From Pholiota molesta (Eukaryota > Basidiomycota > Agaricomycetes > Agaricales > Strophariaceae): a stretch of DNA of 64,000 nt. The notes beneath the pieces are model-generated. The model searched no databases and was not told the DNA's origin. It was given only the letters and a program-made list of their open reading frames with translations. Below are positions 1,321 to 55,097 of this stretch, one piece after another (position 1 is the stretch's first letter; the number at the start of each line of letters is the position of its first letter). Where the stretch lies: contig JACGCK010000211.1 of NCBI GenBank assembly GCA_014925825.1, positions 1-64,000 of the forward strand, in the 5' to 3' direction. The translations under genes were made by a program, and so were the position numbers.

Positions 1321-1500
1321 TTACTTAATGCTAATGTTATTAATAATTTTAACTTATGGTACTAATTTATTAATTTGTCACCTATAGCTACTAAGCCACT
1401 TGTCACTGTTATCACATGACTTGGTTGGTTCAAGCGGCCACTGCCAGCTGCCAAATTGCTTTCATTTCACTTTCGACCCCGCCAATGCTCCAAAACCCAA

Positions 1501-3256: not shown

Positions 3257-3332
3257 CATTGAAGTCGCAGTATTTCATACAGATCATATTTATTTTGAAA
3301 ACACTCTTCGCAGATATCAATTCATAATTTCT

Positions 3333-25191: not shown

Positions 25192-25603
25192 ATAGAACGG
25201 CGATCGTATTGTAATAACAGAGCGTCAGTGAAGTACGTCGGGGTCATGGAAGGTCGAAGTCAAATTTGATAGAGTAGTTAAGAATAAACTAGGCGGTATT
25301 TCAGAATTCAGACTCCGGCATCCCGATGACGCCCAATCCACCTGGAATCTACTTACCACAGCAAACAATCGCAACAATTTTAGTTGGCTCCAAAAATCTA
25401 CAACAAAGCTGATCGGTAGGCCTCTCAGTACATCAACTAACCTAGGTATATAATTATATATCTATTTATCTATTTCTTGCAGAATCACTCATGTCAAATG
25501 CCAATACTACTGAACGACTAAACTTAAATGTATACTGATTGGATTATGTTTAAAATAATCATGATCTAAGTATATGAAATTTTGAAATACAGCCACCTCA
25601 ATT
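25192..25603. other. Spacer between tandem F-box genes
   Basis: AT-rich. About 25270-25370 on the minus strand resembles 890-960 (a stretch containing CCGGAGTCT.AATTCTGAAATACC), so the spacer contains sequence duplicated with the F-box units. No gene. Confidence 0.5.
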
Positions 25604-27375: not shown

Positions 27376-27836
27376 TAGGCTTGGACTCCTGAAGGAATCG
27401 GCAGGGTTGTGGCAGGGGTTGAAATGAAAGAGACAAGTTTAGCCACCAATACTACCCGGACCGCTTGAACGAACCAAGTCGCGTGGGACATTCGGGTCCC
27501 GGAATCGTCACAGAGTCAGAGTCCTGACCCCAACCTCACCCAGTGCTCACCACCCAAGTCACCAAATGGCGTTCACCTCTTTGACTCTTTTGTAATTAAA
27601 ACTCTCATGTGTGCACTAGAGACATATCCAAGCCAGATGACTCGGACAGAGTAGACACGCCTACAATAATTACGAAGTCATTTGAGGACTTAGACAACAC
27701 TTAGATGTCCATTTGCATGTACTTAAAAGTCAACGACAACACAAGACCCTCGTTGTACGGGCGAAAAAAGATGGTTGGTTCGTTCGTCAAATAAGAGATG
27801 CACACCACTCGTAATACAGTACTCACTACAACTACT
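27376..27836 (-). pseudogene. Spacer with F-box 3'-end remnants
   Basis: 27701-27836 (minus) repeats, in broken form, the last exon end of the F-box family: the stretch giving ACAACACAAGACCCTC then GGTTGGTTCGTTCGTC is closest to the 3' end of the gene at 53304. It sits directly beyond the stop of the next F-box gene, suggesting unequal exchange inside the tandem array. The rest of the spacer has no recognisable gene. Confidence 0.55.
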
Positions 27837-29604
27837 TCATTTGGATGTAAAATCGACAACAATACAAGACCCTCCATATACTGGCGAGAAAACACGGTTG
27901 GAGCTTTCATCAAATAATGGAAAGGTAACACGCGATTCATGAGCGTCCCACTTCCTATAATGAGCGACTGGCATTAAAAGGGGAGGTACATCGTCCGTTT
28001 GGCACTTGTCGGCTGGCCATAGGTAACTAGCAATCTCAACCGTCCCATCACGCCCTTGAACATAGGCCTTGTCAATGCCGAGAGAGGCGCACCGTGTGTG
28101 AGACATGTCCATGTTAGAGAGTTTTTCATACCATGGATCGTCGTTGCTACGACGTGGAATAACCAAACCATATATTGCACCGTTGAAGGCAACGGATACT
28201 CGCGTAGCGTCTCGGTGTGGATATGGTTTAGATAGATGGGCACGTTTATATAAGTCGGGGCCCGAGTGCTGCCAGTAAGGTTGAATCCCGGGCTCATCAG
28301 GAAGTTTACCAGGAGGGACCGGCCGAAGGTTTGCGATGTCATAGAGAAAAATGCCGTCTGTTAAGACGCAAGCAAGCTTGCCATCTGGAAGAAGAGATAT
28401 ATGTTGCTGCGTGATATACTGTGAGAAAGAGAAAGTGTGTAAGACGGAGGACTTACAGGAATCCCGATAGTGATATACAACTTGAAATGCGTAGACTCAT
28501 CTGACAGAACCCAGTCACAGACCTCGATGGAAGAAGAAATAGGTTCAAGAATAGTCAGAGATCTAGCTAGATATCGTCCACGAAGAGCGATCCTACTGCT
28601 GCCGGCGCGAAATCCATTGCGAATCGTTTTGATATTGTCGGCCATGAATACTGCTTCCATTCTATGGCCATTCAAGGTTACGCGATAGATGTGGATATCC
28701 GCAGGAGGTGACTCAACAGTCGGGGTGGGATGTGGCCCAAACGTGGTTAAGGGAACAAGACAAAGGTTGAATGTTAACTGCGATTCGTCTGGATCCACAT
28801 CGGCGGCCATATGCCAAACCTGCTCAGGATCATCGGAAGCATCCCTGAGATCGATAATGCACTGGGGCTCTTGAGATAGAGAACTGTCCAAGTCATACGC
28901 ATAGACGCGACAATAACCATGTAGTGATGATGTCAACAGAAGCCATCTCCCACCCTTCAAAAGCAGGGGAAATTCGCAGCCTTCGTGGAGTGTTATTGGA
29001 ACATTTCTCGCTTTTGGTGGGACCTCGCTTGTCCAGTTTATCTCAGACGAGATTCGCCGCAGCACAATCTGTTCAAGTTCTCCGCCATTATAAGTATCGA
29101 TTGGTCTTTCTAAGATGGGAGGAGCCATCAATTCAGCGGACAGGCGATGCAACAAGCGCGTCCAAAGTGGCCTCGCAGTCGATACTTCGAATAAACGCTT
29201 GCAGACCTGTAATATTATCAGGATATACAATTCAGAACATGGGCAGGTTAAGATTCACCTGGCGACTAGCAAGAACATCCTTCCAACCCATGTGCTTGAT
29301 TATTTCCACGAGAACCTCTGTAGGAAGTTCTTCGAGCGCAGAGGTACGGCGTGGATTGAGCCATCTTGAAACTTTTAGCATCATACGTTTCCGTAAGCCT
29401 ACACAAAGACGCAATAAAACAATTTGACGGACTTTTATACGCGTATCTCAGCAGTGGTACACTGACAGAGTACCAGTGCTTGGGAAAGACTTCAAGGGGT
29501 TTCAGAAGAAGCGAAAATATGTCGAACTCAGTCCAACTGCCTCCTGAATACTGAAAATGAGCCGTAAGTTGAGGGATCTCGACAGCTTCTGAGTCTTTAG
29601 GCAT
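27837..29604 (-). CDS. F-box domain protein, tandem copy C
   Basis: Second subtype of the family, closest to 53304-55097. Probable start is MPKDSEAVE (29604); an in-frame ATG 18 bases upstream (29622) is possible. The F-box ALEELPTEVLVEIIKHMGWK precedes an intron, then CKRLFEVSTARPLWTRLLHR. Subtype motifs are LSAELMAPPILERPIDTYNG, PPADIHIYRVTLNG, IEVCDWVLSDEST and the last-exon motif VIPRRSNDDPW. The stop is at 27837-27839. Introns are short and GT..AG. The IPRRSNDD motif is shared with the pseudogene at 161-1320, which therefore belongs to this subtype at its 3' end. Confidence 0.82.
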
Positions 29605-30198: not shown

Positions 30199-31556
30199 AC
30201 CGCCAAGTCGACTGAAGATGCGATCTCCAATTATAATTACAAAACCCTTGCAGTTCGAGATCGATGAACTCACAAGGCGAGTTGACGAGCGTCAGAATGA
30301 CAAATTGTTGGATGCATGGCATCGGAGCCGGTACTTCAAGCGCAAGCATAGGCATATGTTTGAGGAATGCAACATGGCTATATTCATATACAATCGTAGC
30401 AGAGCATACCATGGAACCCCCGTTATCGTGACGTCCCAACCCCAGTACACAACCACATAAAATACAACGAACCCGCTTAGAAGGTGACGGGGCGGTTGGC
30501 AACGAAGGTCGAGCGGAACTTCGTAACACGGTGCGGGAGGGGGAACCTGAGCTTGGGGGTCAAGAGCTGCTTGATGTATGGGCGGCGGATGTCCTCGTTC
30601 TTCTCAATCTCGACCACACGGAGAATCTAAGATGTATGAGCGCCCCAATCTATTTAAAAAAATGTCGCCAGACACGTACGTGGATCGACCTGAAGCGGGC
30701 GCGATGCCTGGCAGCCATGTCCTGGTACAAGCTCTTGACGGCATCAGCGCGGCTGAGGTCACGGAACTCCTTGTACATGTTGTGGGTACCAGAGCGGGAG
30801 TCGTAACGGAGCCAGATGCCGAAGTTCTTGACCTTCAAGGGCTTCTTTTCGTGGATCTATAAAACGGGAACGGCGAACAAGCAAAATTGAATCGCGCAGA
30901 GCCCTGTGGTTAGCAATCCCATTCCGCCTGCCTCTTGAGGGCTGCAAGGGACATCAAGATACATACAACATTGACACCAATGATTTCGCCATTGGCCTTC
31001 TTGACCTTTTTGAGTTGCCTAGGATGCTTCTGAGCGCTGTTTATACAAGACGTGTAATGCAGCGCGTACCTTAGGAAATACCAGAAACGGGACTTGGCGA
31101 CGACCTCGTTGGGCGCAAAGATGCGCATGCGGTAGATCTTGGGGGTAGGCTCAGCCTCGGTGGGCAGATGCCGTCCAACGACTTGGTATTCCGTGAAGGC
31201 CATTCTGCGCAAAGGAGGGAAAACCAAGATCAGCACCCGATCCCTCAAAGTTTTTGTCCGCCTGTCATCCGAAATGTCCATCTCCCATCCATCCGTTCTG
31301 CACCGTTTTTTCTCCCAAAAAGCCAGAGATCGGTCGGAAATGGACTTCTATGGCGTATCGTGCGGGCATAGAGACTCACGTTGGCGATGTGGTGTTTCTT
31401 GAGGGTAGACGGGGGATGATGTGGGCGGATTCGACGCACAACGACAACGATGTTTGTCCGTGTTACCCATCACCTTCCCTGGACCGGACTCGCCGGTCCA
31501 ACTCCTGAAATACAACCCGTAGGAGACTACTTTCGACAATTCTATCAGTGGGCGCT
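30199..31556. repeat. Tandem duplication unit 1 (carries intact eL20)
   Basis: The sequence starting at about 30199 (CCAAGTCGACTGAAGAT...) recurs at about 31557 and continues in parallel through the 3' flank, the eL20 gene and its promoter, giving two head-to-tail units of roughly 1.3 kb. The first unit keeps the functional gene; the second (31557 to about 32860) is decayed and enlarged by a small TIR element. Confidence 0.75.
30477..31203 (-). CDS. RPL20: 60S ribosomal protein eL20 (L18a / yeast L20)
   Basis: Large-subunit ribosomal protein. Four exons, 31203-31070, 31018-30967, 30856-30680 and 30626-30477, join in frame to 170 residues; yeast L20 is of similar size. Diagnostic segments are [85 protein letters not shown] and, at the end, FVANRPVTF. 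All introns are GT..AG and 48-110 nt. No lesions seen, so this is the functional copy beside two decayed ones (6600-7191 and 31813-32330). Confidence 0.96.
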
Positions 31557-31812
31557 TACGGCCAAGTCGACTGAAGATACAATCCTCAGAGCTCAACATC
31601 GATGAACTCACATGGCGGATTTACGGGCGTCAAATAACGAGTTGTTGTGTGCATTATGTTGGGGCTAGTACTTCAGGCGCAAGCATAGGCAAACGTTTGA
31701 GGAACATAACATGGCTATACTCATATGCAATCGCAGCAGAGCATACCATGGAACCCCGATATCGTGATGTCCCAACTGCAGTCCCTAACCACATAAAATA
31801 CAACGAACCTGT

Positions 31813-32330
31813 TCAGAAGGTGACGGGGCGTTTGTCAACCAAGGTCGAGCGGAACTTCGTGACATGATGCGGGAGGGGAAACTTGAGCTTGGGCAATGGG
31901 GTTCACGAGCTGCTTGATGTATGGGCCAAGTATGGGCAGCAGATATCCTCGCTCTTTTCAATCTCGACCACACGGAGAATTTGAGGAAAGAAATGTATGA
32001 GCGCGTCAATCTAAAAACAAATCTCGCCAGGTACGTATGTAAATCGACCTGAAGCGGGCACGATGCCTGGCAGCCATGTCCTAGTAAAAGTCAGGTCACG
32101 GAACTCCTTGTACATGTTGTGAGTACCAGAGCGGGAGTCGTAACGGAGCCAGACGCCAAAGTTCTTGGGAACGGCGAACATTGAATTGCGCAGAGCCCTA
32201 TGGTAACTGGTTAGAAGTCCCATTCCGCTTGCCAGAAACGGGGCTTAGCGACGACCTCGGAGGGCGCAAAGATGCGCATGCGGTAGATCTTGTGCGTAGG
32301 CTCAGCGACTTGGTATTCCGTGAAGGCTCT
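31813..32330 (-). pseudogene. Ribosomal protein eL20 pseudogene, copy 2 (tandem)
   Basis: Tandem decayed copy immediately 5' of the functional gene. The start codon is lost (AAGAGCCTTCACGG where the functional gene has AGAATGGCCTTCACGG). The segment for GRHLPTE is deleted, the exon for [12 protein letters not shown] is missing, and part of exon 3 after KEFRDL is deleted. Exon 4 is recognisable down to a stop at 31813-31815. Intron remnants persist, indicating a DNA-level duplication. Confidence 0.9.
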
Positions 32331-32445
32331 TTCGCGCAAAGGAGGGAAAACCAGTATCAGGACTCAGTTCCACGAAATTTTGTCCGCCGTCAACCGTCCA
32401 TCTCCCATCCGCCGTTTTTCTCTCGCAAAGCCAAAGACCGGTGTA

Positions 32446-32866: not shown

Positions 32867-33803
32867 CAAGGGGGCACCGGCATTGAAATGCCGGACCCGG
32901 GGTCGGTTAGTTAGTCCAGGCCGGAGGCCAGAAAAAAAAAATCTGACCCCCCCCTATAATTAACACTTGAGATGGGCTTTTCGTAGTCTTTTAAGCAATC
33001 TAGATGCTCAGACATCAAATAAAAGACTTTGATGCACAATGAGAGGTACAAAACTAGTCATTAGAGGCTGAGCCACACCTGGCATGACGCGTCTCCATGC
33101 CGCACAGTGCTGCATATGCAGCACTGATTGTACGTGTAGACGGTGAGTGCAGGTGGGTTGGAGTGGACGGCACGAGCAGAATGCGCCGTGCAAGGGTGAG
33201 GTGTCATCACCGTGTCCGTGGGGCGCTGGCGGCCTCCGCGCTGCCATCTGCCTTGTCTGTCCGGTGTCCGCACCTCCGGCATTCTGTCACATTTATAGTC
33301 CAACTGTCCACCCACATTGTGTCCTGCGCGGGATGACATCGCGCAGGGTGCAGGGCTGTCGTCGTAGTGTTTGTGCACCGTGGGACGATGTGGTGGGCGG
33401 TGGGTAGCCCGTCGTCGTGGTATGCGGGCATTGCAGCACGATGTGGCGGGTGGTGGGGGCAACATGGCACATGCGTGGGCGACGTGGCAGGCGTTGGCGG
33501 TCCATTGTCCTTGGCGGTGGTGCGGGTGACGTGGTGGGCATCCGTCGGCGTGGTGGGCGTCCGTTGGCGTGGTGGGCGTCCATCGACGTGGTGGGTGTCG
33601 TGGGCATCGTTGGCGGGCATCGTCATCAGAGCGAGGACTGAGCAAGATGGGAGTGAAAGATTCAACCTGTCATATTACCATGTGATGTCATATTACCATA
33701 TGGGGACGCCATCAATGCTTACGTAGTTAGTTAGTCCAGCCTAACTCAGCCCACCAAAGAAAACTGACCCTAGGTCGGAATTTTTATGCCCTGTGCCCCC
33801 TTG
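32867..33803 (+). mobile_element. Element S, solo copy S1 (937 bp, non-autonomous)
   Basis: Left end CAAGGGGGCACCGGCATTG; right end (complement) CAAGGGGGCACAGGGCATAA: similar but not identical TIRs. The interior is GC-rich and includes imperfect tandem repeats of GTGGTGGGCGTCC type (about 33526-33625). Same length as the core of S2 (36925-43157) after its insertions are removed. No transposase. Unlike S2, the flanking 8-mers differ (TAATGAGC versus GCCAGGAT), so one flank has been replaced by a rearrangement. Confidence 0.85.
33526..33625. repeat. Imperfect tandem repeat inside S1
   Basis: About five imperfect copies of an 18-bp unit near GGCGTGGTGGGCGTCCGTT. The matching inverted stretch in S2 is at about 40796-40896. 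Confidence 0.75.
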
Positions 33804-36015
33804 GCCAGGATATTGCTTTGCTGGCTGGCAGATGCTATTTTTAGCATTGCCGAGCACAGCCTCACCCAATCCGGGCATGAAATGGTGGCACTCTCCCCCT
33901 ACCCCTCGTATTGGAAATTCTGTTCCTCCCTCAATTCTTATCCAATTGCTTCGTTCTTTTTTTGAATATTTAATATAAATAGGGTACTATATGTCTATAC
34001 CATTTATGTATTACTATAATGCATGTATCATTTGTTATTTCGATATTTCTATATTTGGGACACTGCATTTGGGGTTTTCACTGTATTTATGATGGTTATT
34101 GGAACATATAAAGCGGTGAAAAGCTAGAGGTAAATACCCACTACCATTCCTGGTAGTTGAAAAGCTGGCTGGATACTGCCCTATAGCTCTACACTCATAA
34201 AGAGGGGATTTCTGCACATCCTCCTTGATAAATCCATATCTCAACCAATACTATAGCTATATCCAAGTTTAAGAATCCATTAGAATAATAAACATGTCTT
34301 CTTTAGTTCTGTTACTCAACAATTGTGTTCTTATTGCATTTTATTAGCCATATTACCAGAATGGTTAAATATAGCAGAAATAGAGGTATTCTGCCTATAG
34401 AAATTCACAGAAGCACTCTAAAATTCTGTAAAGCTAGGATATTATAGCTCTCATCAATACCTTCAATTACAGATAGGCCCCAAGAAAATGGAGTAAGTGA
34501 GTGAAAAGATAGTGTGGAAGTACTAGTCAAAACATCGGACTAGATCAAGAGTATCTATATAACTATGATAGACCTCTGTTTAACTCATGTTCTTTTGAAT
34601 GTTTCCACCATATCTTTCCACTCAATCACTCTAATTCTTTCCGGCCTATCTTGAATTGTAGGTATAAATGAGAGCTATAATATCCTAGCTCTACAAAATT
34701 TTAGAGTGCTTGTGTCAATTGCTATAGGCCAAATACCTCTATTTCTGCTATATTTAACCATTCTTGTCATATGGCCAATGAAATGCACTGAGAAGAGAAT
34801 TGTTGAGTGGCAGAACGAAAGAAGACATGTCTAATACTCTAATGGATGCTTGAACTTGGTTATAGCTACAGTATTGGCTGAGATATGGATTTATCAAAGA
34901 GGATATCCAGTAATGTCTCTCTTTATGGGTGTGGAGCTATAGGACAGTATTCAGGTAACTTTTAAACTACCAGGAATTGTACTAGGTACTTACCTCTAGC
35001 TTTCCACCGCTTTATATGTGCCAATAAGCATCATAAATACAGTGAAAACCCCAAATGCAATGTCCAAAGTACAGAGATATCGAAATAACAAATGCTGCAT
35101 GTATTATAGTGGCGTATAAGTGCTATAGGCGCATAGTACCATATTTATATTGAATATTAAAAAAAAGAACGAAGCAATTGGATAGGAATTGAGGGAGGAA
35201 ATGAATTTCCAATATGAGGGGGAGGGGGAGAGTGCCACCAATCCATGCCCGGATTGGGTGAGGCCGCGCTCGGCAGCGCTAAAAATAGCATCTTCCAGCC
35301 AGCAAAGCAATATCCTGGCCATCCCCATGTCCAGTTCAGTGCCTTCCCGGCATCTGATCCCTATAATCAAGGGCTCATTAAATCCGGTAAATTCAGGAGA
35401 ATCCAACGCACCTACGCGCGTTCCGGCTCAATTAGCGGTTAATATTCTATTTACAAACAACCATTTCCTTTATAGGGCCTCAGAAAGTTGCTCAATCAGC
35501 ACGAGTAGGGTACCGTTAGAAAGGTGTTTTATTAACCTATTTTATGAGATAATATGCGCGCGAATTATGGAACCGTAGCCGGCGCTAATGCGGTGCGAGC
35601 GCAAATATATCCGGAGCGAGGAACGGAGCGAGGAACGGACGGAAAATTATGTTCAAGAACGCGTTAGAAGCGCGCGTTTGATACCTATAGAAAGCTGCTT
35701 TGATTATGGAAAACGACCCAGTGGTTGCGGAGGAAAGCAGCCATCAATGTGTGCGCTTATTTCTCCCAAATAGTAATTCGCTTCTAGGGCCTGAACCAAT
35801 AAAGCTATCCATATGATTCTTTCACAGGTGGATTTAGAATTTAATTCCGCATCTTTCGGTATAATATGGTCCCAGTGGGTCCTATATAGGGTGCACCAGC
35901 TACCCAGGTGCATTTCCAATAATAGTGGGAAAATGCTATTTTAGGCATTTCCCACCCCTAGGAGGGTCCCTGCCTCATTTGCAGTCATGTGTGGTCATGT
36001 GGTTAGGTAGTAGGT
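33804..36015 (+). mobile_element. Element H, copy H1, left portion (5'-truncated)
   Basis: Large inverted-repeat element interrupted by the Ngaro-like retrotransposon; it resumes at 47904 and ends at 48285. The palindrome centre is near 34565: 33804-34560 is the inverse of about 34570-35330. Compared with the complete copy H2 (37026-40711), the outer roughly 1.1 kb of the left arm is missing where S1 abuts. The short ORFs in the arms are conserved only because the DNA is repeated. No transposase. Confidence 0.85.
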
Positions 36016-36216
36016 CTGCAGTTCTAGTTATTCCTCGAGATTTATCGAGTCGAATTAACACAGAACTAGTGCTTTGTAAGCTAGATTAGAACAGAGAAAA
36101 ATCAAGTCACACAAGGGCTCAGTCACAGAGTCATATCTGGGACTGAGCACGTGAGGAGATCTTGAGTTTTTCTCTTCTGCTCTGCCACCTCAAAGCATCT
36201 AGAGAAAATTTTCTGC
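36016..36216 (+). repeat. Split direct repeat A1
   Basis: 201 bp beginning CTGCAGTTCTAG; near-identical to A2 at 47399-47599. Left boundary of the retrotransposon, next to the H1 sequence ending AGGT. Confidence 0.9.
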
Positions 36217-37025
36217 GTGCCTTTTCGTTGTTCTCCCACTTCGTCTCTGCTCAATATCATTCGTACTTCATATCAACATGACACAGCAAGACTCTCCTCC
36301 TGCCGCCGTCACCGGCAACCCCGTTCCTCCCACTTTAACCGAGCTTGATCCCATCAACCCCGAGGGATCCGGGCAAGGTCAGGCACCCCCCATTGGCCAG
36401 GAAGATCCCGAGGATGTCATCGTTCCCGCAGACGTCGGTGCCACAGGGGTCCAAGGCGTCAACTCAGGCGTCGATTCTCCCGCTGGCGACGCCCCCTCGT
36501 CTCGCCCTCCATCGCCCACACCCGACGACGACCATGTTACCCAAGTTCTTGCCGGCTTCTCCTTGCTTTCGTCAGGCCAACGCGAGGATGTTTTACGAAT
36601 TGTCGACCCGCGTGCCGACATTCCTGCTGTCGCCACTGCCGTCGTGAGGCCCGAAACATCGACTACGCTTTTTACTGAGGAGGCAGAGCGTCCCGCTCCT
36701 TCGACGGTCGGCGACCACAAGTTCGGCATACATCCGGAGGTGGTCAAGTTGGCTCAGTATCGTCAGCATCTGCCACTTTCCCTTTTCCTCTACAAATCTC
36801 AGAAGGATCTCTTCATGAAACCTTCCCTCGCTCGTGAACAACACATCGTGAATGGTTCAAAAGTCTACCTCATCAAGATGGATCAATTTCCCGACGAGAC
36901 GCATATGGACTACATGGACTGGACCAAGGGAGCACAGGGCATAAAAATTCCGACCTAGGGTCGGTTTTCTTTGGTGGGCTGAGTTAGGCTGGACTAACTA
37001 ACTACGTAAGCATTGATGGCATCCC

Positions 37026-40000
37026 AGCCTTGTCTGTTAATATTCTACATGAAGATGTGGCAATTCCCCGGATAAAAATATTGCATCCAGAGTGCTAACT
37101 GCCCACCTCACCTAGCTGACTTTGAAAAATTTCCGCCCTAAGCCAGTGGTCTATGATGGTCAGTAGACGTGCTACTGCTGCTCACTGTGCTCCGGTGCTT
37201 GACACCATGATCAATGGTGTCGAGCAGTGCTCGGCACTGTTTTCAGGGTCGTCCCAAAAAGGAATCCATCAAACTTTTTCCAAAAGAAGAATGACAAATT
37301 TGTAAGCTTTTCCCCCATCATTTGTCAGCACCTCAGCATCTATCATTAGATTTGACCCATTTTGGGACTTTCTGCTCATTGGCCCATCAAATATGCCATC
37401 AAGGACCAAACACATGACCTGGTACCTAACCACATGACCACACATGACTGCAAATGAGGCAGGGACCCTCCCAGGGGTGGGAAATACCTAAAATAGCATT
37501 TTCCCAATATTATTGGAAATGCACCTGGGTAGCTGGTGCACCCTATATGGGACCCACTGGGACCATATTATACCGAAAGATGCGGAATTAAATTCTAAAA
37601 CCACCTGTGAAAGATTCATATGGATAGCTTTATTAGTTCAGGCCCTAGAAGCGAATTATTATTTGGGTGAAATAAGCGCACACATTGATGGCTGCTTTCC
37701 TCCGCAACCGCTGGGTCGTTTTCTATAATCAAAACAGCTGTCTATAGGTATTTAAAGCGCGCTTCTAACGCGTTCTTGATCATAATTTTCCTTCCCTTCC
37801 TGGCTCCGTAAAACGCTCCGGATATATTTACGCTCGCACCACATTAGCGCCGGCTACGCTTCCACTAGGCGCGCGCATACTATATCATAAAATAGGTTAA
37901 TAAAACACCTTTCTAACGGTACCATACTCGTGCCGATTGAACAAATCTCCGAGGCCCTATAATGGAAATGGTCGTTTGTAGATAGAATATTAACCGCGCA
38001 TCGCGCCGGAACGCGCGCAGTTGCTTTGGATTCTCCTCAATTTACCGGATTTAATGATACCCTGATTATAGGGATCAGAGGCCGGGAAGGCACTGAACTG
38101 GACATGGGGATGGGCTGGATATTGCTTTGCTGGCCGGAAGATGCTATTTTTAGCGCTGCCGAGCGCGGCCTCACCCAATCCGGGCATGGATTGGTGGCAC
38201 TCTCCCCCTCCCCCTCATATTGGAAATTCATTTCCTCCCTCAATTCCTATCCAATTGCTTCGTTCTTTTTTTTAATATTTAATATAAATATGTTACTATG
38301 TGCCTATAGCATTTATACACCACTATAATACATGCAGCATTTGTTATTTCGATATCTCTGTATTTTGGACACTGCATTTGGGATTTTCACTGTATTTATG
38401 ATGCTTATTGGCACATATAGAGGGGTAGAAAGCTAGAGGTAAGTCGCTACTACAATTCCTGGTAGTTTAGAATCTACCTGGATACTGTCCTATAGCTCCA
38501 TACCCATAAATAGAGACATTACTGTATATCCTCTTTGATAAATCCATATCTCAACCAATACTGTAGCTATGAACAAGTTAAAGCGTGCATTAGAATATTA
38601 GACATGTCTTCTTTATTTCTGTTACTCAAGAATACTCTTCTCAGAGCATTTCATTGGTCATATGACATGAATGGTTAAATATAGCAGAAATAGAGGTATT
38701 TGGCCTATAGCAATTCACGTAAACACTCTAAAATTCAATGGAGGTAGGATGTTATAGCTCTCATTGATACCTTCAATTCAAGATAGGCCGGAAGAAAATA
38801 GAGTAAGTGTGTGGAAATATATGGTGGAATTAGTACTCAAAACATCGGACTAGGTCAAGGCTATCTATGTTACTTATCATAGACATGTTTAAATCATGTT
38901 TCAGTAGAATGTTTCCACCATATCTTTCCACTCACTCACTCTAATTCTTTCCGGCCTATCTCTAATCGTAGATATTGATGAGAGCTATAATATCCCAGCT
39001 CTACAGAATTTTAGAATGTTATGTGAATTGCTATAGGCAGAATACCTCTATTTCTGCTATATTTAACCATTCTTGTCATATGGCCAATGAAATGCATTGA
39101 GAAGAGAATTGTTGAGTGGCATAACGAAAGAAGACATGTCTAATACTCTAATGGATGCTTGAACTTGGTTATAGCTACAGTATTGGCTGAGATATGGATT
39201 TATCAAGAGGATATACAGTGATGTCTCTCTTCATGGGTGTGGAGCTATAGGACAGTATCAGGTAGATTCTAAACTACCAGGAATTGTAGTAGCGACTTAC
39301 CTCTAGCTTTCACCCTCTATATGTGCCAATAAGCATCATAAATACAGTGAAAATCCCAAATGCAGTGTCCAAAATACAGAGATATCGAAATAACAAATGC
39401 TGCATGTATTATAGTGGTGTATAAATGCTATAGGCACATAGTAACATATTTATATTAAATATTAAAAAAAAGAACGAAGCAATTGGATAGGAATTGAGGG
39501 AGGAAATGAATTTCCAATATGAGGGGGAGGGGGAGAGTGCCACCAATCCATGCCCGGATTGGGTGAGGCCGCGCTCGGCAGCGCTAAAAATAGCATCTTC
39601 CGGCCAGCAAAGCAATATCCAGCCCATCCCCATGTCCAGTTCAGTGCCTTCCCGGCCTCTGATCCCTATAATCAGGGTATCATTAAATCCGGTAAATTGA
39701 GGAGAATCCAAAGCAACTGCGCGCGTTCCGGCGCGATGCGCGGTTAATATTCTATCTACAAACGACCATTTCCATTATAGGGCCTCGGAGATTTGTTCAA
39801 TCGGCACGAGTATGGTACCGTTAGAAAGGTGTTTTATTAACCTATTTTATGATATAGTATGCGCGCGCTAGTGGAAGCGTAGCCGGCGCTAATGTGGTGC
39901 GAGCGTAAATATATCCGGAGCGTTTTACGGAGCCAGGAAGGGAAGGAAAATTATGATCAAGAACGCGTTAGAAGCGCGCTTTAAATACCTATAGACAGCT

Positions 40001-40711
40001 GTTTTGATTATAGAAAACGACCCAGCGGTTGCGGAGGAAAGCAGCCATCAATGTGTGCGCTTATTTCACCCAAATAATAATTCGCTTCTAGGGCCTGAAC
40101 AATAAAGCTATCCATATGAATCTTTCACAGGTGGTTTTAGAATTTAATTCCGCATCTTTCGGTATAATATGGTCCCAGTGGGTCCCATATAGGGTGCACC
40201 AGCTACCCAGGTGCATTTCCAATAATATTGGGAAAATGCTATTTTAGGTATTTCCCACCCCTGGGAGGGTCCCTGCCTCATTTGCAGTCATGTGTGGTCA
40301 TGTGGTTAGGTACCAGGTCATGTGTTTGGTCCTTGATGGCATATTTGATGGGCCAATGAGCAGAAAGTCCCAAAATGGGTCAAATCTAATGATAGATGCT
40401 GAGGTGCTGACAAATGATGGGGGAAAAGCTTACAAATTTGTCATTCTTCTTTTGGAAAAAGTTTGATGGATTCCTTTTTGGGACGACCCTGAAAACAGTG
40501 CCGAGCACTGCTCGACACCATTGATCACGGTGTCAAGCACCGGAGCACAGTGAGCAGCAGTAGCACGTCTACTGACCATCATAGACCACTGGCTTAGGGC
40601 AGAAATTTTTCAAAGTCAGCTAGGTGAGGTGGGCAGTTAGCACTCTGGATGCAATATTTTTATCCGGGGAATTGCCATATGTTTCATGCATGAGACTAGC
40701 AGACACTGGTG
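37026..40711. mobile_element. Element H, complete copy H2 (palindromic, about 3.7 kb)
   Basis: Two arms of about 1.84 kb in inverted orientation meeting near 38869. Ends read AGCCTTGTCTG... (37026) and ...CAGACACTGGTG (40711), flanked by the 8-bp duplication GGCATCCC (37018-37025 and 40712-40719). S1, which lacks H, reads through this site with one copy near 33707-33715. The outer arms look nearly identical (the ORFs 38026-38328 and 39409-39711 translate identically), whereas the central 0.5 kb is clearly diverged. No transposase is recognised; it is probably a non-autonomous foldback-like element. Confidence 0.88.
40317..40320. other. Unoccupied counterpart of the Ngaro integration site
   Basis: GGTACCAGGTCATGTG in the right arm of H2 is the intact form of the site that, in H1, is split by the retrotransposon between AGGT (36012-36015) and CATGTG (47904-47909). 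It shows integration without loss or duplication of bases. Confidence 0.85.
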
Positions 40712-41134
40712 GGCATCCCCATATGGTAATATGACATCACATGGTAATATGACAGGTTGAATCTTTCACTCCCATCTTGCTCAGTCCTCGCTCTGATGAC
40801 GATGCCCGCCAACGATGCCCACGACACCCACCACGTCGATGGACGCCCACCACGCCGACGGACGCCCACCACGCCGACGGATGCACACCACGTCACCCGC
40901 ACCACCGCCAAGGACAATGGACCGCCAACGCCTGCCACGTCGCCCACGCATGTGCCATGTTGCCCCCACCACCCGCCACATCGTGCTGCAATGCCCGCAT
41001 ACCACGACGACGGGCTACCCACCGCCCACCACATCGTCCCACGGTGCACAAACACTACGACGACAGCCCTGCACCCTGCGCGATGTCATCCCGCGCAGGA
41101 CACAATGTGGGTGGACAGTTGGACTATAAATGTG

Positions 41135-42728
41135 TAAGGCTGGACACGAGTCATGGCTACTCATGAGTACCCGTGGGTTTACTCGTGGGAATACTCACGG
41201 GTAGGCCGACTCGCGGGTCCGGGTCACCCGTTCCCACGGGTGCGTCCGGATCCGAGTTTCACTTTCTAGAATGGCGGGTACTCGCGCGAGTACTCGTCAA
41301 CACTGGTATTTTTCACTCATTTATATGGCTTAAATTTATCATCCCAAAACTTGTAAATAAGACATTGGTGGCACTGCCAATAATGTGGAAACACTGTTCG
41401 ACAAGCAAGTCGACAGCGCCGGAGGAGTTTCAAACTCCGCTTGAATGCCACCTCCCTTGCCCCGATCGCTTGTTGTGGATGACCATGCATCCCTCCCCTC
41501 CAAGACGACACGCGTGCACCACGTCGCTCACCACTCGCCATGTGGTGCCGCGATGATGCCCACAACCCGCCACGACGCCCGCAACCACTGCCAACGCACC
41601 GCATCGCCCCCACCGTCCGCCACATCGCGCCGCGACGACGGGCGCTTGCTCATGCGCCACAACGATCGACGAAGGGGTATAGGAAATGGATTATGGGAGA
41701 CCCGGGGGGTGCTGGATAGCGAAGAGAAGACCCGAGGAGCGGGAGATCTGCTAGGTGCGTCGCAGCCGCCTCCCTTCTTCCTCCACTGACCCCTCCCCAC
41801 TTACAGTTCCACCTTGCGGCAGCGTAATCCCTGACGACGTGCCAAGTTCTGCCAACACACGGTCGACGCCGCCGGGCGCACGCACTCACAGGTCCGCCTT
41901 GGGCACCGTGGCGCGACTCCCGGCAGACAGACGACACGCGAACGCATGGTCGATGGTGCACAACAACGAACGGACGACTTCGCACGAGCGCACGGTGAAG
42001 GACGGTCGATGGCGCACGGTTGACAGCGCAGCAACAATGGTGCACGAATGAAGGACGGACAACGGCACGCGGGAGCAGGAGATCCGCCAGGAGCGTCGTC
42101 GCAGCCATGTCGTTGCCACGTTGTCGCAGCCATCGCCCTTTGTCACTTGACACTGACCCTCTCCACTCACAGATTCACCTTGGGGCAGCGCGCCCCCGGG
42201 CCCCCTCCCTTCCTGTCCTGCCACCACACGCCTCCCGCCAACACCACATATCACTCCACAAATGCCGCGGGGTGACATCACGGACACCATTTGGCCCCCT
42301 GAGCCCATGCGAACACGCGCTCACGACCTCGGGGGCCGTCGCGTCCACCCCCTGTTTACCGTCTACATATGCAACGATGACTGCAATCGCAGTCATCTGC
42401 GGTGTGGAGACGCAAGACAGCTGGGGCAGCAATATTCTATATACACATATGTTTAGAATAATAAAATATATTATATTCAATCGTGTTATATTTTGAATAC
42501 TCGCGAGTATACCTGTGGGTACTTGTAAAAACTCGTGCCCTGGCAAGTACTCGCAAACTCGTGCCCTGGCAAGTACTTGCAAACTCGTGAATACTTGCGA
42601 GTTTTGACTCGCGGATCCGGGTGATCCGTGGGAACAAACTCGCACGGATCCGAGTCTGAGATTTGAGCTTGGAAATACTCGCGAGTTCGGATCCGGGTCA
42701 CCCGTGAGTAGACTCGTGTCCAGCCTTA
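41135..42728. mobile_element. Element T, hAT-like non-autonomous transposon
   Basis: 1,594 bp with TIRs TAAGGCTGGACACGAGT (41135) and its complement ending at 42728, flanked by TAAATGTG on both sides (41127-41134 and 42729-42736). Subterminal regions are packed with short words such as ACTCGCGAGT, CGGGTCACCCG and GTACCCGTGGG, as is typical of hAT ends. S1 has the empty site (about 33287-33295 on the complement). The interior is GC-rich with no recognisable transposase. Confidence 0.88.
42530..42581. repeat. 26-bp direct repeat in the right subterminal region of T
   Basis: AACTCGTGCCCTGGCAAGTA followed by CTCGCA or CTTGCA, two full copies, then a partial third (AACTCGTGA). Probably duplicated transposase-binding words. 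Confidence 0.65.
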
Positions 42729-43323
42729 TAAATGTGACAGAATGCCGGAGGTGCGGACACCGGACAGACAAGGCAGATGGCAGCGCGGAGGCCGCCAGCG
42801 CCCCACGGACACGGTGATGACACCTCACCCTTGCACGGCGCGTTCTGCTCGTGCCGTCCACTCCAACCCACCTGCACTCACTGTCTACACGTACAATCAG
42901 TGCTGCATATGCAGCACTGTGCGGCATGGAGACGCGTCATGCCAGGTGTGGCTCAGCCTCTAATGACTAGTTTTGTACCTCTCATTGTGCATCAAAGTCT
43001 TTTATTTGATGTCTGAGCATCTAGATTGCTTAAAAGACTACGAAAAGCCCATCTCAAGTGTTAATTATAGGGGGGGGTCAGATTTTTTTTTTCTGGCCTC
43101 CGGCCTGGACTAACTAACCGACCCCGGGTCCGGCATTTCAATGCCGGTGCCCCCTTGGACTGGACAGAAGCTTGGGGCAATTACATCGACTTCCTCAAAG
43201 ACAGGGCCAGTGCAGGTGTCTTCGACCGTTGGTTGAGGCACTACAGGTTCCTTTCGGGTCATCAGGACCTCCGCCTCAACTTCGCCGCCATTCTCCGCTT
43301 CGACATCGAGCAGCGTCGAGAAT

Positions 43324-45768
43324 ATGCTGCTCTCCCTACCATCTTCAACGAGACGAGTTACCTTCGTAGGTTCCAGGAGATCAAGGACCTCATCCTTCGC
43401 GAGGAGCTTCTTGCCTGGCGTCGTTCCGTCGAGTCGAATTCTCGGAGCACATCCGGTTCTCGATTCGAACCTTACCCTTCTTCTGCAGAGGGCGGTGGTT
43501 CGTCCTTTCCGAAGGGCAGTGGGAGCAAGTCCGGCGGTCTCATCTGCTTACGCTGCGGTCGGGCGGGTCACAGGTTCCCTAGCTGTGAGGAAACGAAGAA
43601 CGAACGTGGCGAAGACGTCGCGTGCAAGTTCGCCGACAAGAAGCTCGTTTCTGTCTCTTCGAACACCCCGGTCTGCGTCGCTTGGAATATTGGAGGATCC
43701 AAGCGTTGTCACCACAAACCTTGCGCTTTCCAGCACGTCTGTTCCCTCTGTGGGATCCGTTCTCACTTCGCCTGCTCCCGCACTTGTCTCTGAAGCGGCA
43801 GCAGAGGAGTTTCTCACCACTATTTTTCCTTCTTCTGCGTCTCTCCTCCCTGATCTCGACACTTCGCTGCGCGATCGTGTTGTCACTCCTTATGTTCCAT
43901 CTGCCTTTCAAGCTTTTATCGACAGGTTCGATTCTCTACGTGACAAATATCCTTTCCTCGTCCGCAAACTCACATTCGGTTTCCGTCTTGGGAATTTACT
44001 TCCTCTGACGGAGACCTTTACTCCTCCCAACCATCCTTCGGCCTCGCTTTACTCTTCCGCCGTTCTTGATTACCTTAAATCCGAAGTCGATAAGGGACAC
44101 ATGTCTGGGCCCTTCTCTAGGTCCCAGCTCGAGCACATCCTGGGTGGTCCTTTCCGTTCGTCACCCATTCAAGTCGTCGCAAAATTCAATGCGGACGGAG
44201 AGCTCGTCAAGACTCGCGTGGCCATCAATCTTTCCTTCCGCAATCGCCATGGCGTTTCGGTCAATGATATGATTGATTCAGATGACTTCCCAACTGAATG
44301 GGGTACAGCCGCGGAAGTGGAAGCCATCGTGAGTTGGTTTTTCGTTGCTTCTCATCGCTTTTCATATTTCTGGCGAGTTCACGTTTGTGCTCACCTGCCC
44401 CCCCCCTCGCCTGTGCGTGGGTGGTCTGCCTATCCCCCTCGCCTTTGCGTGGTTGTTCCCCTCGCCTGTGCGTGGTTGTTGTGTCCTCTCCTTTGAGAGT
44501 TGTTTTGCCTGCGTGCTTCATTTGCTTTTGTTGGGCAGCGTCGCTCATGTTTTGTTTCGTTGTTCCCCTAGGTTGCTTCTGCGCCGCCGGGTGCCCAGGC
44601 TGCAACTCTAGATGTCGAGGCAGCTTTCCGAACCGTTCCCGTCCATCCCGACCACAAGGCTTACACTGTGGTGAGTGTCGGGGATGAGTTTTGGCTTGAT
44701 CATGTACATCCTTTTGGATGTACTTCTTCTTCCGGGAATCACGGTGAAGTCGGTGATTTCACGAAAGATTCCTGGGAGGTGATGGAGGTTGGGCCTGTCC
44801 GTAAATGGGTGGATGATTTCGTGGTCTTCCGATTTCCCATTTTGGGTGATGGGTCTTTAGGTGCCCCATACGCTTATCTTTATGATCGGAAGTCGATGCT
44901 TGAGAAGATCGAGTCTTTGGGAATTCCGTGGCATGATTCGAAGGGCCAGGATTTCGATTTTACCTTTGTCTATCTTGGTTTTTTCTGGGATATCGCTTCC
45001 AAGACGGTTTCTCTAACTGACGAGAAGCGTTTGAAGTTTCTTCACAGAGTTGACGAGTTTATTGTTCGCTACGAGAACGCTCAAGCTCCTTTGGATGCTG
45101 TGATGTCATTAAACGGTTCTTTGTCTCACATCGCATTTGTGTATCCTCGTGGACGGTCCTTTCTCCCCAACCTTTCCACATTCATCGCCTCCTATCCATC
45201 GAATTTTCACCACCGTTACCCTCCTAAATCAGTGATCTCCGACCTCAAGTGGTGGTCGCGTACACTCTCCATCATCGACTGGTGTCGATCTCTCCGTCCT
45301 CGTCTCCCGGTTGAAGACATAGGATTGTTTGTTGATGCTTCGACGTCTTGGGGCATAGGCCTTATTTGGGGTTCCGGGGATAGTTGGGCAGCTTGGCGCC
45401 TTTCCGATAAACCTCGCAACATCTTTCAGCACATCGGTTGGATGGAAGCAGTGGCCGTTGAGTTAGCGGTCCATGTTCTCATTGCACGTGGATTCCATTC
45501 ATCCCATATTCTCATTCACAGTGATAATCAAGGTGTCATCGGTGCTTGGAATCGAGGACGTGGTCGAAATCCCAAAATAAATCTCTCTATTCGACGCGCG
45601 GAACTTTTGGCGCACGAACACGCCATCTCCCTTTCTTTCGCTTTTGTCGACTCCGAAGACAACCTGGCAGACCCAATTTCCTGCGGTATTTTGGGACCAG
45701 TGGATCGTCGTTTGTCCTGCTCGTTTTCGCTCCCTTTGGAGCTGCGGCCTTTCCTTCTCCATGTCTAG
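43324..45768 (+). CDS. Reverse transcriptase-RNase H polyprotein of the Ngaro-type element
   Basis: Overlaps the gag ORF in another frame; the conserved part begins near 43790, and how translation starts (frameshift or re-initiation) is not visible. RT motifs seen are TRVAINLSFRN, LDVEAAFRTVPV, HPFGCTSSS and the active site WVDDFVVF (about 44806). RNase H residues are Asp in FVDASTSWGIG, Glu in AVAVELAVHVL and Asp in HSDNQGVIGAWN. A 243-nt GT..AG segment (44329-44571) between VEAI and VASAPPG contains an in-frame stop and looks like a spliceosomal intron; its length is a multiple of three. The 3' end overlaps the recombinase start by 8 nt (ATGTCTAG). Confidence 0.87.
44329..44571 (+). other. 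Probable spliceosomal intron in the retrotransposon RT gene
   Basis: Donor GTGAGT, acceptor CCCCTAG, phase 0. Removing it joins VEAI to VASAPPGAQ..LDVEAAF, which is continuous RT sequence. It is unusually long for this window and contains a minisatellite of CCTCGCCTGTGCGTGGTTGTT-type units (about 44405-44480). Confidence 0.75.
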
Positions 45769-47059
45769 TGACCCTCTTTCTATTGCGTTGGCAGGTGTCG
45801 ACGTGGCAGCTGAGGCTGCTCGTTTGAGTTCTCGTGTGGCGTCGAATTCTCAGGCGGGTGCACCGCAAGCTTTAGTTCGCCGAATCAAAAAGCCCCGAAG
45901 GCCCAAGGAGGGCAACTCTTATTCTCCTTCCTTCTTTCGTCCCCACGTCCTCGCGTCCGAAAGACTTATCGCTTGGACGACTCCCATCACCACTCCTTTC
46001 CGTCGCTCTCTTTCTTCCATTCTGCCGGCTGCGGATGCACTGGCTCTTCTTCATGTCATGCTGTTTTCGCTGGACGAGAAGACGCGCGAACTTTATGGGG
46101 CCGGTCCCTTATGTTTCACCCAATATTGCGATTCTCGTGGAATTCCGGAGGATGCTCATATGCCGGCGTCGGAAGTTCTCCTTGCCGGATTCGCGACAGC
46201 TATGGCTGCAGGCAAAGTGGCTCGTACGACCCTCGATAACTGGTTGGCTGGTTTGCATTTCTGGCATACCATCAACGGTTGTCCTTGGCATGGTGAAGAC
46301 ATGCTTCGGGCGGTCAAGGGAGGTGTTTCCAAACTCGTTCCGGATACTTCTCGGAGAGCTAAGCGTCCTCCGGTGTCGATTCAGCACATGTACGCTCTTC
46401 GCCGCAGTCTCGACCTTTCGTCATCATTTGATGCGGCGGTCTGGGTGCTGGCATGTGTGGCTTTCTGGTCGTGCTGTCGCCTCGGTGAATTGCTCATCCC
46501 CAGCCGTTATGCTTTTCAACCTTTAAAGCATGTTGCCCGTGGTTGCCCCATATCCTTTCGTGAAGATGCCGGGCGCATACATTCGGTTATGTTTCACGTT
46601 CCGTGGACGAAAACAACTTTCAATCTCAGCGCCGACATTGTTGTTACCAAGCTGGAAGATCCATCAGATCCTTATGAGGCTTTCAAGCATCATTTGACAA
46701 CAAATTCTTCTGTTCCGGACGACGCGCCTTTATTCTCATTTGCGACAGCCGATGGTTCATATGCTCCTATGACGCGATCCTGGTTTCTCGGGCGTTGTGA
46801 GGATGTATGGGTGGCATCTGGGATGCCTCGTATGGCTGGCCATGGGTTCCGCATTGGTGGGGCAACGGAATTATTGTTGCATGGCACTCCACCGGACGTT
46901 GTGGCTGTCCAAGGGCGGTGGAAATCTCGGTCTTTCTTGGAATATTGGCGTCGTATTGAGGGTATTCTTCCTCTGTTTGTAACTAATTCCTTTGCTTCTT
47001 CGCGGGCGGCTTTGGTAGCAGACACAATGGCCATTTACAGTAGATCTCACGGGCGCTAG
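45761..47059 (+). CDS. Tyrosine recombinase of the Ngaro-type element
   Basis: Integrates the circular DNA intermediate by site-specific recombination. The ATG at 45761 overlaps the RNase H stop; the product is about 432 residues and the frame is open. The catalytic set is visible: first Arg in FWSCCRLGELLIPS, H-x-x-R in HGFRIGGATELL, Trp in the next conserved position (VQGRWKS) and the nucleophile Tyr in RSFLEYWRR. The N-terminal part is basic (RRIKKPRRPK). The chain is followed directly by the B1 repeat region. Family membership (DIRS order, Ngaro-like) rests on the YR plus the split direct repeats. Confidence 0.93.
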   Translation: MSSDPLSIALAGVDVAAEAARLSSRVASNSQAGAPQALVRRIKKPRRPKEGNSYSPSFFRPHVLASERLIAWTTPITTPFRRSLSSILPAADALALLHVMLFSLDEKTRELYGAGPLCFTQYCDSRGIPEDAHMPASEVLLAGFATAMAAGKVARTTLDNWLAGLHFWHTINGCPWHGEDMLRAVKGGVSKLVPDTSRRAKRPPVSIQHMYALRRSLDLSSSFDAAVWVLACVAFWSCCRLGELLIPSRYAFQPLKHVARGCPISFREDAGRIHSVMFHVPWTKTTFNLSADIVVTKLEDPSDPYEAFKHHLTTNSSVPDDAPLFSFATADGSYAPMTRSWFLGRCEDVWVASGMPRMAGHGFRIGGATELLLHGTPPDVVAVQGRWKSRSFLEYWRRIEGILPLFVTNSFASSRAALVADTMAIYSRSHGR

Positions 47060-47173
47060 TTTTTATGTTTTATATCGTGATATCTATTGTTATCTTAACG
47101 TTATTCCTTTCTCGCTCGGTTTGGGTGAGCTGGCTTGATTCGAAGTCAGCTGTTGTGAGCTCGGCTCCATCGA

Positions 47174-47398
47174 GGGTTAGCTGATCTTCGAGACTCAATT
47201 TTCTGAGATTAGTCTATACAAGCTGACCCCAGAACGCGCTCAAAGTGTGCGCATATTTCTGAACATTCTCTTAGTTGTAGTTCAGACATCGTTTTCGCAC
47301 GCTTTCCCCCAAACTCGAGAAATGAGATTTTTCTACCAAAAGTCATTTCTTGCTTCTTGTCTGATTGCTGAGTTCTAAATTCTAGCTATTTACAAAGC
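47174..47398 (+). repeat. Split direct repeat B1
   Basis: 225 bp beginning GGGTTAGCTGATC and ending ATTTACAAAGC, near-identical to B2. Immediately followed by A2, recreating the circle-junction sequence AAAGC|CTGCAG. Confidence 0.9.
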
Positions 47399-47599
47399 CT
47401 GCAGTTCTAGTTATTCCTCGAGATTTATCGAGTCAAATTAACACAGAACTAGTGCTTTGTAAGCTAGATTAGAACAGAGAAAAATCAAGTCACACAAGGG
47501 CTCAGTCACAGAGTCATATCTGGGACTGAGCACGTGAGGAGATCTTGAGTTTTTCTCTTCTGCTCTGCCACCTCAAAGCGTCTAGAGAAAATTTTCTGC
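47399..47599 (+). repeat. Split direct repeat A2
   Basis: 201 bp, near-identical to A1 at the left end (36016-36216); visible differences include TCGAATTAACA versus TCAAATTAACA and AAGCATCT versus AAGCGTCT. Confidence 0.9.
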
Positions 47600-47678
47600 C
47601 CCACCCACCTCTTCCCTCTTTATTTGACATTTCTGTTCTTTGATTTTTGTCATTTTTCCTCATTTTAGTGCATTCTGG

Positions 47679-47903
47679 GGGTTAGCTGATCTTCGAGACT
47701 CAATTTTCTGAGATTAGTCTATACAAGCTGACCCCAGAACGCGCTCAAAGCGTGCGCATATTTCTGAACATTCTCTTAGTTGTAGTTCAGACATCGTTTT
47801 CGCACGCTTTCCCCCAAACTCGAGAAATGAGATTTTTCTACCAAAAGTCATTTCTCGCTTCTTGTCTGATTGCTGAGTTCTAAATTCTAGCTATTTACAA
47901 AGC
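47679..47903 (+). repeat. Split direct repeat B2
   Basis: 225 bp copy of B1, separated from A2 by a 79-bp pyrimidine-rich spacer. Forms the right end of the retrotransposon; H1 sequence CATGTGTTTGG resumes at 47904. Confidence 0.9.
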
Positions 47904-48285
47904 CATGTGTTTGGCCCTTGATGGCATATTTGATGGGCCAATGAGCAGAAAGTACCAAAATGGGCCAAATCTAATCATAGATAAACAAGTGCTGACAAAT
48001 GATGCAGAAAAAAAGCGAATCTAATCAGGTTTTCTTCTTTTGGAAAAAATTGATTGCTTCCTTTTTGGGACGACCCTGACAACGGTGTCGAGCACTGTTC
48101 GACACCGTTGAGCACAGTGAGCAGCAATGAACACATGGTGAGCAGCAATATTGCCACTGGCTTAGGGCAGAGATATTCAAAGTCAGTTAGGTGGGGTGGC
48201 TGCGCACCTGAGTTACCATCCTGGATGCACTTTCTTTCCTGGGCAACTTGCCATGTCCCATGCATGATATCAACAGACACTGGTG
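47904..48285 (+). mobile_element. Element H, copy H1, right terminal portion
   Basis: Colinear with 40319-40711 of H2 (CATGTGTTTGG... to CAGACACTGGTG). The 8 bases that follow are GGGTGCGG; the matching left TSD is lost with the truncated left arm. Confidence 0.85.
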
Positions 48286-53303: not shown

Positions 53304-55097
53304 CTAGTAGGCAAAATCAACAACAACATGAGACCCTCCTTCTATAAAAGAAAAGATATGGTTGGTCCGTTCGTCGAATAATGGACGTGCACACCATTCA
53401 TAAGGAAAGTCCCACGTCCGAAAACGAGCAGCTGGGACTAGAGGTGAAGGCACATCGTTCATTTTGGACTCGTCACCTGGCCAAAGGTAACTAGCAATTT
53501 CAACCGTCCCATTACGCCATTGGACACAGGCCTTGTTAATGCCAACAGAGACTGCATGTGTGTGAGATAGGGTAATGTCAGACAGTGGCTCAAACCATGG
53601 GTCATCATTGCTTTGCCGTGGAATGACCAAACCATACACAATGCCCTGCACGATAACAGCCATTCGAGTTGTGTGTTGGTGCAGATACACTTTAGATAGA
53701 TGTGTGTGTTCATACATTGGGGAGCCTAAATGCTTCCAGTAGGGTTGAATCATAGGTTGAATCATAGACTCATTGGCAAGTTCACCAGAAGGGACCGACC
53801 GAAGGTTTGCGATGTCGTAGAGCAAGATGTCATTTCCTAAGACAACAACTAGCTTGCTATCTGGAAGAAGAGCTATATGTTTCTAGGTTGTCTGCTGTGA
53901 GAAAGAGAACAGTAAATAAGACGAGGGTCTTACAGGAATGCCTGATTTCAGAGCGATGTGTAACTTCAAATGCGTAGAATCATCTGACCGAACCCAGTCA
54001 CAGACTTCGATGGAAGAGGAGGCAGTTTCATAAACATTCAAATGTCTAGCCAGATAGCATCCACGTAAATTGCTCCTAGCGCTAATGGCGCGAAATTCAT
54101 TGCGGAGAGTCTTGATTTTATTTGCCATGAGCATCGCCTCACCTCTATTGCCATTCAAGGTTAGGCGGTAGATATGGATATCAGCGGGGGGTACATAAAC
54201 ACTTGGGGCAGGGTATTGTTCCAAAGTGTACCGGGGAATGAGACAAAGGTTGAAGGTCAATTGTGATTCGTTTGGATCAACATCAGCTTCCATAAGCCAA
54301 CTTTGCTGAGGATTACCGGAACCTTCCCCGAGATCGATGATGCATTGAGGCTCTTGAGACGAAGGTTTGTCTAAATCATATGCATAAACGCGCCTACAAT
54401 CCCGTGGTGGCGAGATTAATAAGAGCCATCTCCCACCCTCCAAAAGTAGGGTGCAGTCTTCGCCTGGGTTGATTCTTATTGGAACATTTCGTGCCCTCGG
54501 TGGTAGTTGGCTTGTCCATCGCACCTCAGATGAGATGCGTCGCAATACAATGTGTTCGAGTTCTCCGCCCTCATAAGTATCGATTGGTCTTTCTAGGATG
54601 GGAGGAGCCATCAATTCAGCGGACAGGCGATACAACAAGCACATCCAAAGTGGCCGCGCGGTCGATATTTCAAATAAACGCTTGCAGACCTGCAATATTA
54701 TCATCAGAATATACAATTCAAAGCATGGGCAGGTTAAAACTCGCCTGGCGACTAGCAAGAATATCCTTCCAACCCATGTGCTTGAATATTTCCACGAGAA
54801 CCTCTGTAGGAAGATCTTCGAGCGCAGAGGTACGGCGTGGACTGAGCCATCTTGAAACTTTACAGAATCATATGTTTCTGTCAGCATACATACAGGCGCA
54901 ATAGAGAAGTTTGACAGACTTTCATACGCGTATCTCAGCAGTTGCACACAGGCAGAATTCCAGTTCTTGTGAAAGGCTTTGGGAGGCCTAAGAAGTGAAA
55001 ATATATCGAACTCGGCCCAACTGCCCCCTGAATACTGAAATTGCGCCGCAATTTGATGGACTTCGGGTTGGAGGACAGACTTCGAATCTTTATGCAT
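53304..55097 (-). CDS. F-box domain protein, subtype C
   Basis: Closest relative of the gene at 27837-29604. The start MHKDSKSVLQPEV (55097) aligns with MPKDSEAVE there; an upstream in-frame ATG at 55190 exists. The F-box exon (ALEDLPTEVLVEIFKHMGWKDI, about 54770-54830) is flanked by short introns; then CKRLFEISTARPLWMCLLYR, LSAELMAPPILERPIDTYEG, PPADIHIYRLTLNG and IEVCDWVRSDDST. The last exon has VIPRQSNDDPW and ends at 53304. No lesions seen after removing introns. The F-box suggests an SCF role; the target is unknown. Confidence 0.82.

Follow-up and report, generated by a model that had tools for sequence, protein, structure and literature searches.

We analysed 64,000 nucleotides of the fungus Pholiota molesta (contig JACGCK010000211.1, positions 1 to 64,000; C126:1–64000 in our numbering and the window in what follows), taken from a 65.6-Mb genome of 625 contigs. 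Between positions 32867 and 48285 the window holds a stack of four kinds of mobile element: a family of palindromic transposons (H), a Ngaro-type retroelement and two shorter elements (S and T), both with terminal inverted repeats (TIRs). The boundaries of the stack come from a self-BLAST of the window and from reading of the junctions, and are accurate to a base or two. The features, in order of position, are as follows.

32867..33803, + strand: S1, 937 bp, non-coding, TIR CAAGGGGGCAC; adjoins H1 at an internal H position, without target duplication.
33804..36015, + strand: inner part of H1, a subfamily-B palindromic (foldback) transposon of 3.7 kb; covers the inner left arm, the centre and the greater part of the right arm.
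36016..47904, + strand: tyrosine-recombinase retrotransposon of Ngaro type, 5,648 bp once S2 and its duplication are taken out; target not duplicated.
36016..36216, + strand: split direct repeat A1, 2/200 mismatches to A2.
36925..43157, − strand: S2, 6,233 bp, opposite to S1; inside the Ngaro element, with duplication GACTGGAC; holds H2 and T.
37025..40711, + strand: H2, complete, 3,687 bp, palindromic, subfamily A; alpha end on the left, beta end on the right; duplication GGCATCC.
41135..42728, + strand: T, 1,594 bp, non-coding; perfect 18-bp TIR TAAGGCTGGACACGAGTC; 8-bp duplication TAAATGTG.
45794..47059, + strand: tyrosine-recombinase frame; by eye it shows HGFR and a C-terminal Y, which we take to be the tyrosine-recombinase motif; match to Pfam Phage_integrase (PF00589) at E 0.017, under the cut-off.
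47174..47399, + strand: split direct repeat B1, 2/226 mismatches to B2.
47399..47599, + strand: split direct repeat A2, placed by self-BLAST and junction reading.
47679..47904, + strand: split direct repeat B2, placed in the same way.
47905..48285, + strand: outer end of H1, the end of the right arm past the Ngaro insertion; a beta-type end.

The nested stack is real. An earlier note, made from the letters of this DNA, had proposed that H1 contains the Ngaro-type element, which contains S2, which in turn contains H2 and T, and both self-BLAST and junction reading bear this out. Its bookkeeping also holds: S2 without H2 (plus 7 bp) and T (plus 8 bp) comes to 937 bp, the length of S1, and the excised core is colinear with S1 over all 937 bp, with no gaps and 7 mismatches (99.25% identity). 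A match of this quality, together with the exact duplications, is not chance. The target duplications that the note called perfect are so for S2 (GACTGGAC) and T (TAAATGTG), but that of H2 is 7 bp and not 8; the 8-bp repeat reading, GGCATCCC, arises from the first base of the element being C, and the sum is unchanged because 3,687 + 7 equals 3,686 + 8. As for the empty sites that had been claimed, H2 does carry the unbroken Ngaro target, near position 40318, but S1, which abuts an internal H position, is no outside reference. Nor are H1 and H2 ordinary terminal-repeat elements: they are near-palindromes over their whole length and belong to different subfamilies, B and A, respectively.

The retroelement shares with Ngaro-type retrotransposons the layout of its repeats, a recombinase frame and insertion without target duplication, and no difference from them was found. 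Its split direct repeats lie in the Ngaro order, A1 at the 5′ side and B1–A2–B2 at the 3′ side, which is the definition given in the part of PMC9210276 that we draw on. When the element is removed, the flanks of H1 join up to give the sequence seen in H2, sharing no more than a single C. Among 7,996 proteins scored, 174 match the recombinase frame at E ≤ 0.001, many of them named DNA breaking-rejoining enzyme; the nearest named match is a protein of P. molesta itself (81% over 92%), followed by proteins of other mushroom-forming fungi. The same frame has no match in the PDB at E ≤ 10, and, where reverse transcriptase and RNase H would be expected, neither 43324–44496 nor 44668–45768 has any Pfam match up to E 10; the WVDDF and CCHC-like strings in the element were recognized by eye only. 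A likely intron (GTGAGT...CCTAG, approximately 44330–44572), also read by eye, lies within the putative reverse-transcriptase region. Elsewhere in the genome there are four related Ngaro loci at 74–76% identity.

At the break in H1, S1 is flanked by ...TTAATGAGC on the left and GCCAGGAT... on the right, with no target duplication. H1 is incomplete: the part that would match approximately the first 1,086 bases of H2 (the outer left arm, about 1.09 kb) is missing, so its own duplication cannot be checked. Because the right end of S1 adjoins an internal H position without a duplication, S1 was probably inserted into H1 too, and its left flank, together with about 1.09 kb of H1, was probably lost or replaced afterwards; either a deletion from the S1 end or an ectopic exchange would suffice. 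On the left of S1, 800 bases are part of another repeat in the window, and diverged local repeats (80%) at 30260–32416 extend up to this side of S1. Among the best 40 of 77 candidates, no full-length S copies other than S1 and S2 are near-identical, and these two lie 3.1 kb apart, which makes it likely that S1 is the parent or a sibling of S2 through a local hop; the one further full-length copy among these candidates is on contig C618 (86%, 922 bp). S-type ends have 11 matches in the genome at up to two mismatches (control, 1) and T ends have 23 (control, 0). T is hAT-like by form alone, through its 8-bp duplication and 18-bp TIR, and none of the 51 genome matches to hAT transposase is tied to T ends.

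The insertion order that had been read from the stack is forced in its first part, H1 before Ngaro before S2, but not for H2 and T relative to the landing of S2. The divergences, small counts all, are consistent with the order: H1 is 98–99% identical to its nearest relatives, the Ngaro repeats differ at 4/426 positions (0.9%) and S1 differs from S2 at 7/937 (0.75%). We envisage that H1 was struck by the Ngaro-type retrotransposon, which would have integrated through its recombinase without duplicating the target; that an S element, presumably of cut-and-paste type, next inserted into the gag-like frame of the Ngaro element; and that H2, a second palindromic transposon, and the TIR element T would have entered the S sequence. 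For H2 and/or T, landing in S2 in place is the simpler reading. They might instead have joined S sequence elsewhere, with the 6.2-kb composite S2 then moving in one piece into the Ngaro element: S2 has kept its ends and its 8-bp duplication around all 6.2 kb, and no sequence feature dates H2 or T against the landing of S2. We consider this rather unlikely, given that it would need transposition at 6.6 times the usual length and that H2 and T turned up in no other S copy, the C618 copy being without inserts of such size (again among the best 40 of 77 candidates).

The H family extends well beyond this stack. H2 matches its own reverse complement over the entire 3.7 kb, and 12 of the 20 copies that we fetched give a single self-inverse match of at least 3.3 kb. 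At least 49 two-armed loci were counted by eye, their opposed arms meeting at the centre, mostly about 12 bases apart and with some centres altered; the count is a lower bound, drawn from the best 40 of 166 and the best 40 of 132 candidates. The two ends of the element are of distinct types, alpha (CAGCCTTGTCTG) and beta (CACCAGTGTCTG), which by eye have about 20 of 29 positions in common. A pattern covering both has 77 matches in the genome, and the reversed-pattern control has none. Sixteen of the fetched copies have one alpha and one beta end, and in 12 of these the target duplication is an exact 7 bp, whereas 4 have none. Of the four remaining copies among the 20 fetched, two lack one end, one has two alpha ends (L054, on C90) and one has two beta ends (L061, on C64), neither of the last two with a clear target duplication. 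Three copies are of odd length (L055, L065 and L068, at 3,483, 3,825 and 3,802 bp), and in these the arm identity is unequal between the outer and inner parts, as in C78, with 99.4% in the outer part and 89% in the inner.

Arm statistics were taken from 16 of the 20 fetched loci, omitting L050 and L059 (an end missing), L051 (short and fused) and L054 (two alpha ends). In most copies the two arms are highly divergent over the outermost 200 bp and the innermost 400 bp, with almost no divergence between. In this mid zone (columns 201–1400) the arms of one copy differ by no more than 1.1% in 12 of the 16 copies, compared with medians of 5.9–7.5% to other copies, and the difference is zero in four: C224, C615, C78 and H2 (0/1196 columns). 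The nearest arm is a copy's own partner in 13 of the 16; arms of other copies are nearer in C500 (9/60) and in C5a and C5b (3/60 and 2/60, from each other). A maximum-likelihood tree on columns 241–1380 likewise makes the arms of a copy sisters in 13 of 16 copies, 10 of them with support 100, and groups all four C5a and C5b arms together. Private alleles, counted in 15 copies (without C5a), occur in both arms rather than one at a ratio of 122:94 for the mid zone, 15:85 for the centre and 1:36 for the ends. In the centre tree, which omits C55, sister arms appear in no copy. Relative to the alpha end, the centre has flipped at least five times over 14 tips (C55 and C64bb omitted), with states taken by eye from the tree.

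Two sets of copies bear on when the arms become alike. C5a and C5b are 99.92% identical, with similarity ending at the element ends and unrelated flanks, and they have 102 of 103 arm-mismatch columns in common, including all three in the mid zone; a jump thus does not erase the differences between arms. In subfamily B, 12 of the 13 loci at 97–99% identity to the left inner arm of H1 have a partner arm at 85–87%, and in ten of these loci the other side is 97–98% identical to the right arm of H1. Between the two arms of H1 itself, 35 of 312 columns mismatch in what is left of its mid zone. That the arms of this subfamily have been kept about 14% apart argues that transposition does not homogenize them. 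We had taken the 15% difference between the arms of H1 to mean that the copy is very old, and dropped this because its subfamily relatives are 97–99% identical side for side.

Unlike arms are thus carried unchanged and similar arms remain similar, which is what gene conversion with a divergence limit should produce, and arm-to-arm conversion of this kind is the best fit to the data. We suggest that the H family is moved as a unit by a transposase that acts in trans and makes 7-bp duplications, and that its arms recombine independently of transposition. Conversion would keep the arm middles nearly identical, crossovers between the arms would flip the centre with respect to the two distinct ends, and recombination would cease once divergence is too high, as in subfamily B. 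More tentatively, and on balance with somewhat more doubt than conviction, we propose that the H family offers a natural assay of how the two arms of a palindrome recombine: its copies would convert and flip in place while the arms are alike, with the centre kept from becoming perfect (possibly because a hairpin without mismatches would be cut), conversion would cease past roughly 10–15% divergence, and the element would then spread as the non-converting subfamily B. In the account as a whole, of successive insertions and of H arm recombination apart from transposition, we place considerable confidence.

Another route to like arms would be homogenization at each transposition, through a hairpin or fold-back copying intermediate, with no part for later conversion. 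Many copies do have nearly identical arms, H2 down to 0/1196 mid-zone columns, much as long terminal repeats are alike at birth. But C5a and C5b retain their common mismatches after a jump, the H1 subfamily keeps its arm divergence through its spread and the centre and ends remain different in most copies, so we regard this route as improbable; in its strict form, at every jump, it is contradicted by the C5 pair and subfamily B, and occasional events of the kind are possible. It is also very unlikely that the arm identity of subfamily A is mostly an assembly artefact in which multi-mapping reads copied arm onto arm during polishing: the complete lack of mismatches across about 1,200 columns in C224, C615, C78 and H2, with its sharp borders, is a possible outcome of polishing, but differences of 5–7% are beyond what polishing can remove, the 122 both-arm private alleles need arms of one copy that were already alike, and C5a, C5b and several other copies retain a few mismatches.

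Several observations weigh against our account. The mid zones of C500 (56/1199, 4.7%) and C223 (53/1196, 4.4%) are diverged, and those of C333 (1.6%) and C64bb (2.7%) are intermediate. In the tree, the arms of C500 are not sisters and those of C568 are sisters with a support of 65 only; just three copies (C223, C64bb and C500) account for 64 of the 94 private alleles that are on one arm. The mid zone was picked after the arm profile had been seen, and the earlier windows, 60–900 and 900–1800, made the arms sisters in 6/16 and 4/16 copies. The locus C529 departs from the pattern of subfamily B, with arms at 97% and 95%, and polishing of near-identical arms towards each other could account for the last percent of identity. 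On the side of transposition, 4 of the 16 two-ended copies lack a target duplication, and no autonomous partner of H was found.

The search for such a partner compared transposase matches in the genome with the 77 H end motifs by eye. None of the 128 KDZ matches lies inside an H-ended element, as far as the exact end pattern, which misses diverged ends, can tell; the match nearest to an H copy is 3.9 kb outside the copy, on C115. KDZ scores are nearly equal at six loci, on C332, C226 (two), C259, C612 and C62. L070 (C259) and L071 (C612), which lie beside KDZ domains, are 99.9% identical over all 2 kb, so that no element end was reached. The 51 hAT matches likewise include none inside an H-ended element. 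One on C564, 4.1 kb from a beta end, was rejected because four further copies of this hAT match, three on C50 and one on C378, lack an end of that type in their vicinity, as was the alpha-end locus L069 (C7), which has about 140 bp in common with H and then runs into the gag-like frame of a retroelement. The P-type transposase domain PF12017 has no match in the genome, and none in the control genomes.

With its two long inverted arms, H belongs among the foldback-type elements, of which it is a new member. Like FB, FARE, Tetris and Galileo, it consists for the most part of inverted repeats and is dominated by non-autonomous copies, and it is mobile with a target duplication (12 of 16 copies). 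It differs from them in being a near-palindrome with a spacer of roughly 11–12 bp and two distinct ends, in its fungal host, in having no transposase that we could find, and in the coexistence of a subfamily with diverged arms. Its arm behaviour has precedent: the sections of two reports that we draw on give a within-copy repeat identity of 98–100% for Galileo (PMC3573991) and consider homogenization of the repeats possible for Tetris (PMC4079207). Among the papers listed in a literature search covering one open library, none was, judged by its title and the opening of its abstract, about palindromic transposons of mushrooms. The Kyakuja (KDZ) elements of agaricomycete fungi are described, in the portion of PMC12730594 used here, as having 7-bp target duplications and 5′-CA..TG-3′ ends. 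H shares both features but is without KDZ-like coding, and, set against the Kyakuja trait of no terminal inverted repeats, its ends agree by eye at about 20 of 29 positions and its inner arms are inverted repeats. Because the duplication and the ends match, Kyakuja is our best guess for the transposase that may mobilize H; we do not claim membership, since no transposase with H ends was found.

Repeats are also found beyond the stack, so the window is repeat-rich well outside it. An inverted pair of about 1.7 kb (7330–9016 and 21435–23115) is 90% identical, with further repeats near it at 1489–3352, 23278–24741 and 25583–27385, and a direct repeat of about 1.75 kb (27849–29576 and 53313–55060, 77%) flanks the stack at a distance.

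Nesting of transposons is common, and this stack leaves the picture of it unchanged. The H family would matter more. Long palindromes that have next to no spacer are usually considered unstable, and at least 49 loci carry one despite this expectation. The two H subfamilies seem to flank a limit to recombination that could potentially be measured in a natural genome, and it is the contrast between a converting and a non-converting subfamily that makes H informative.

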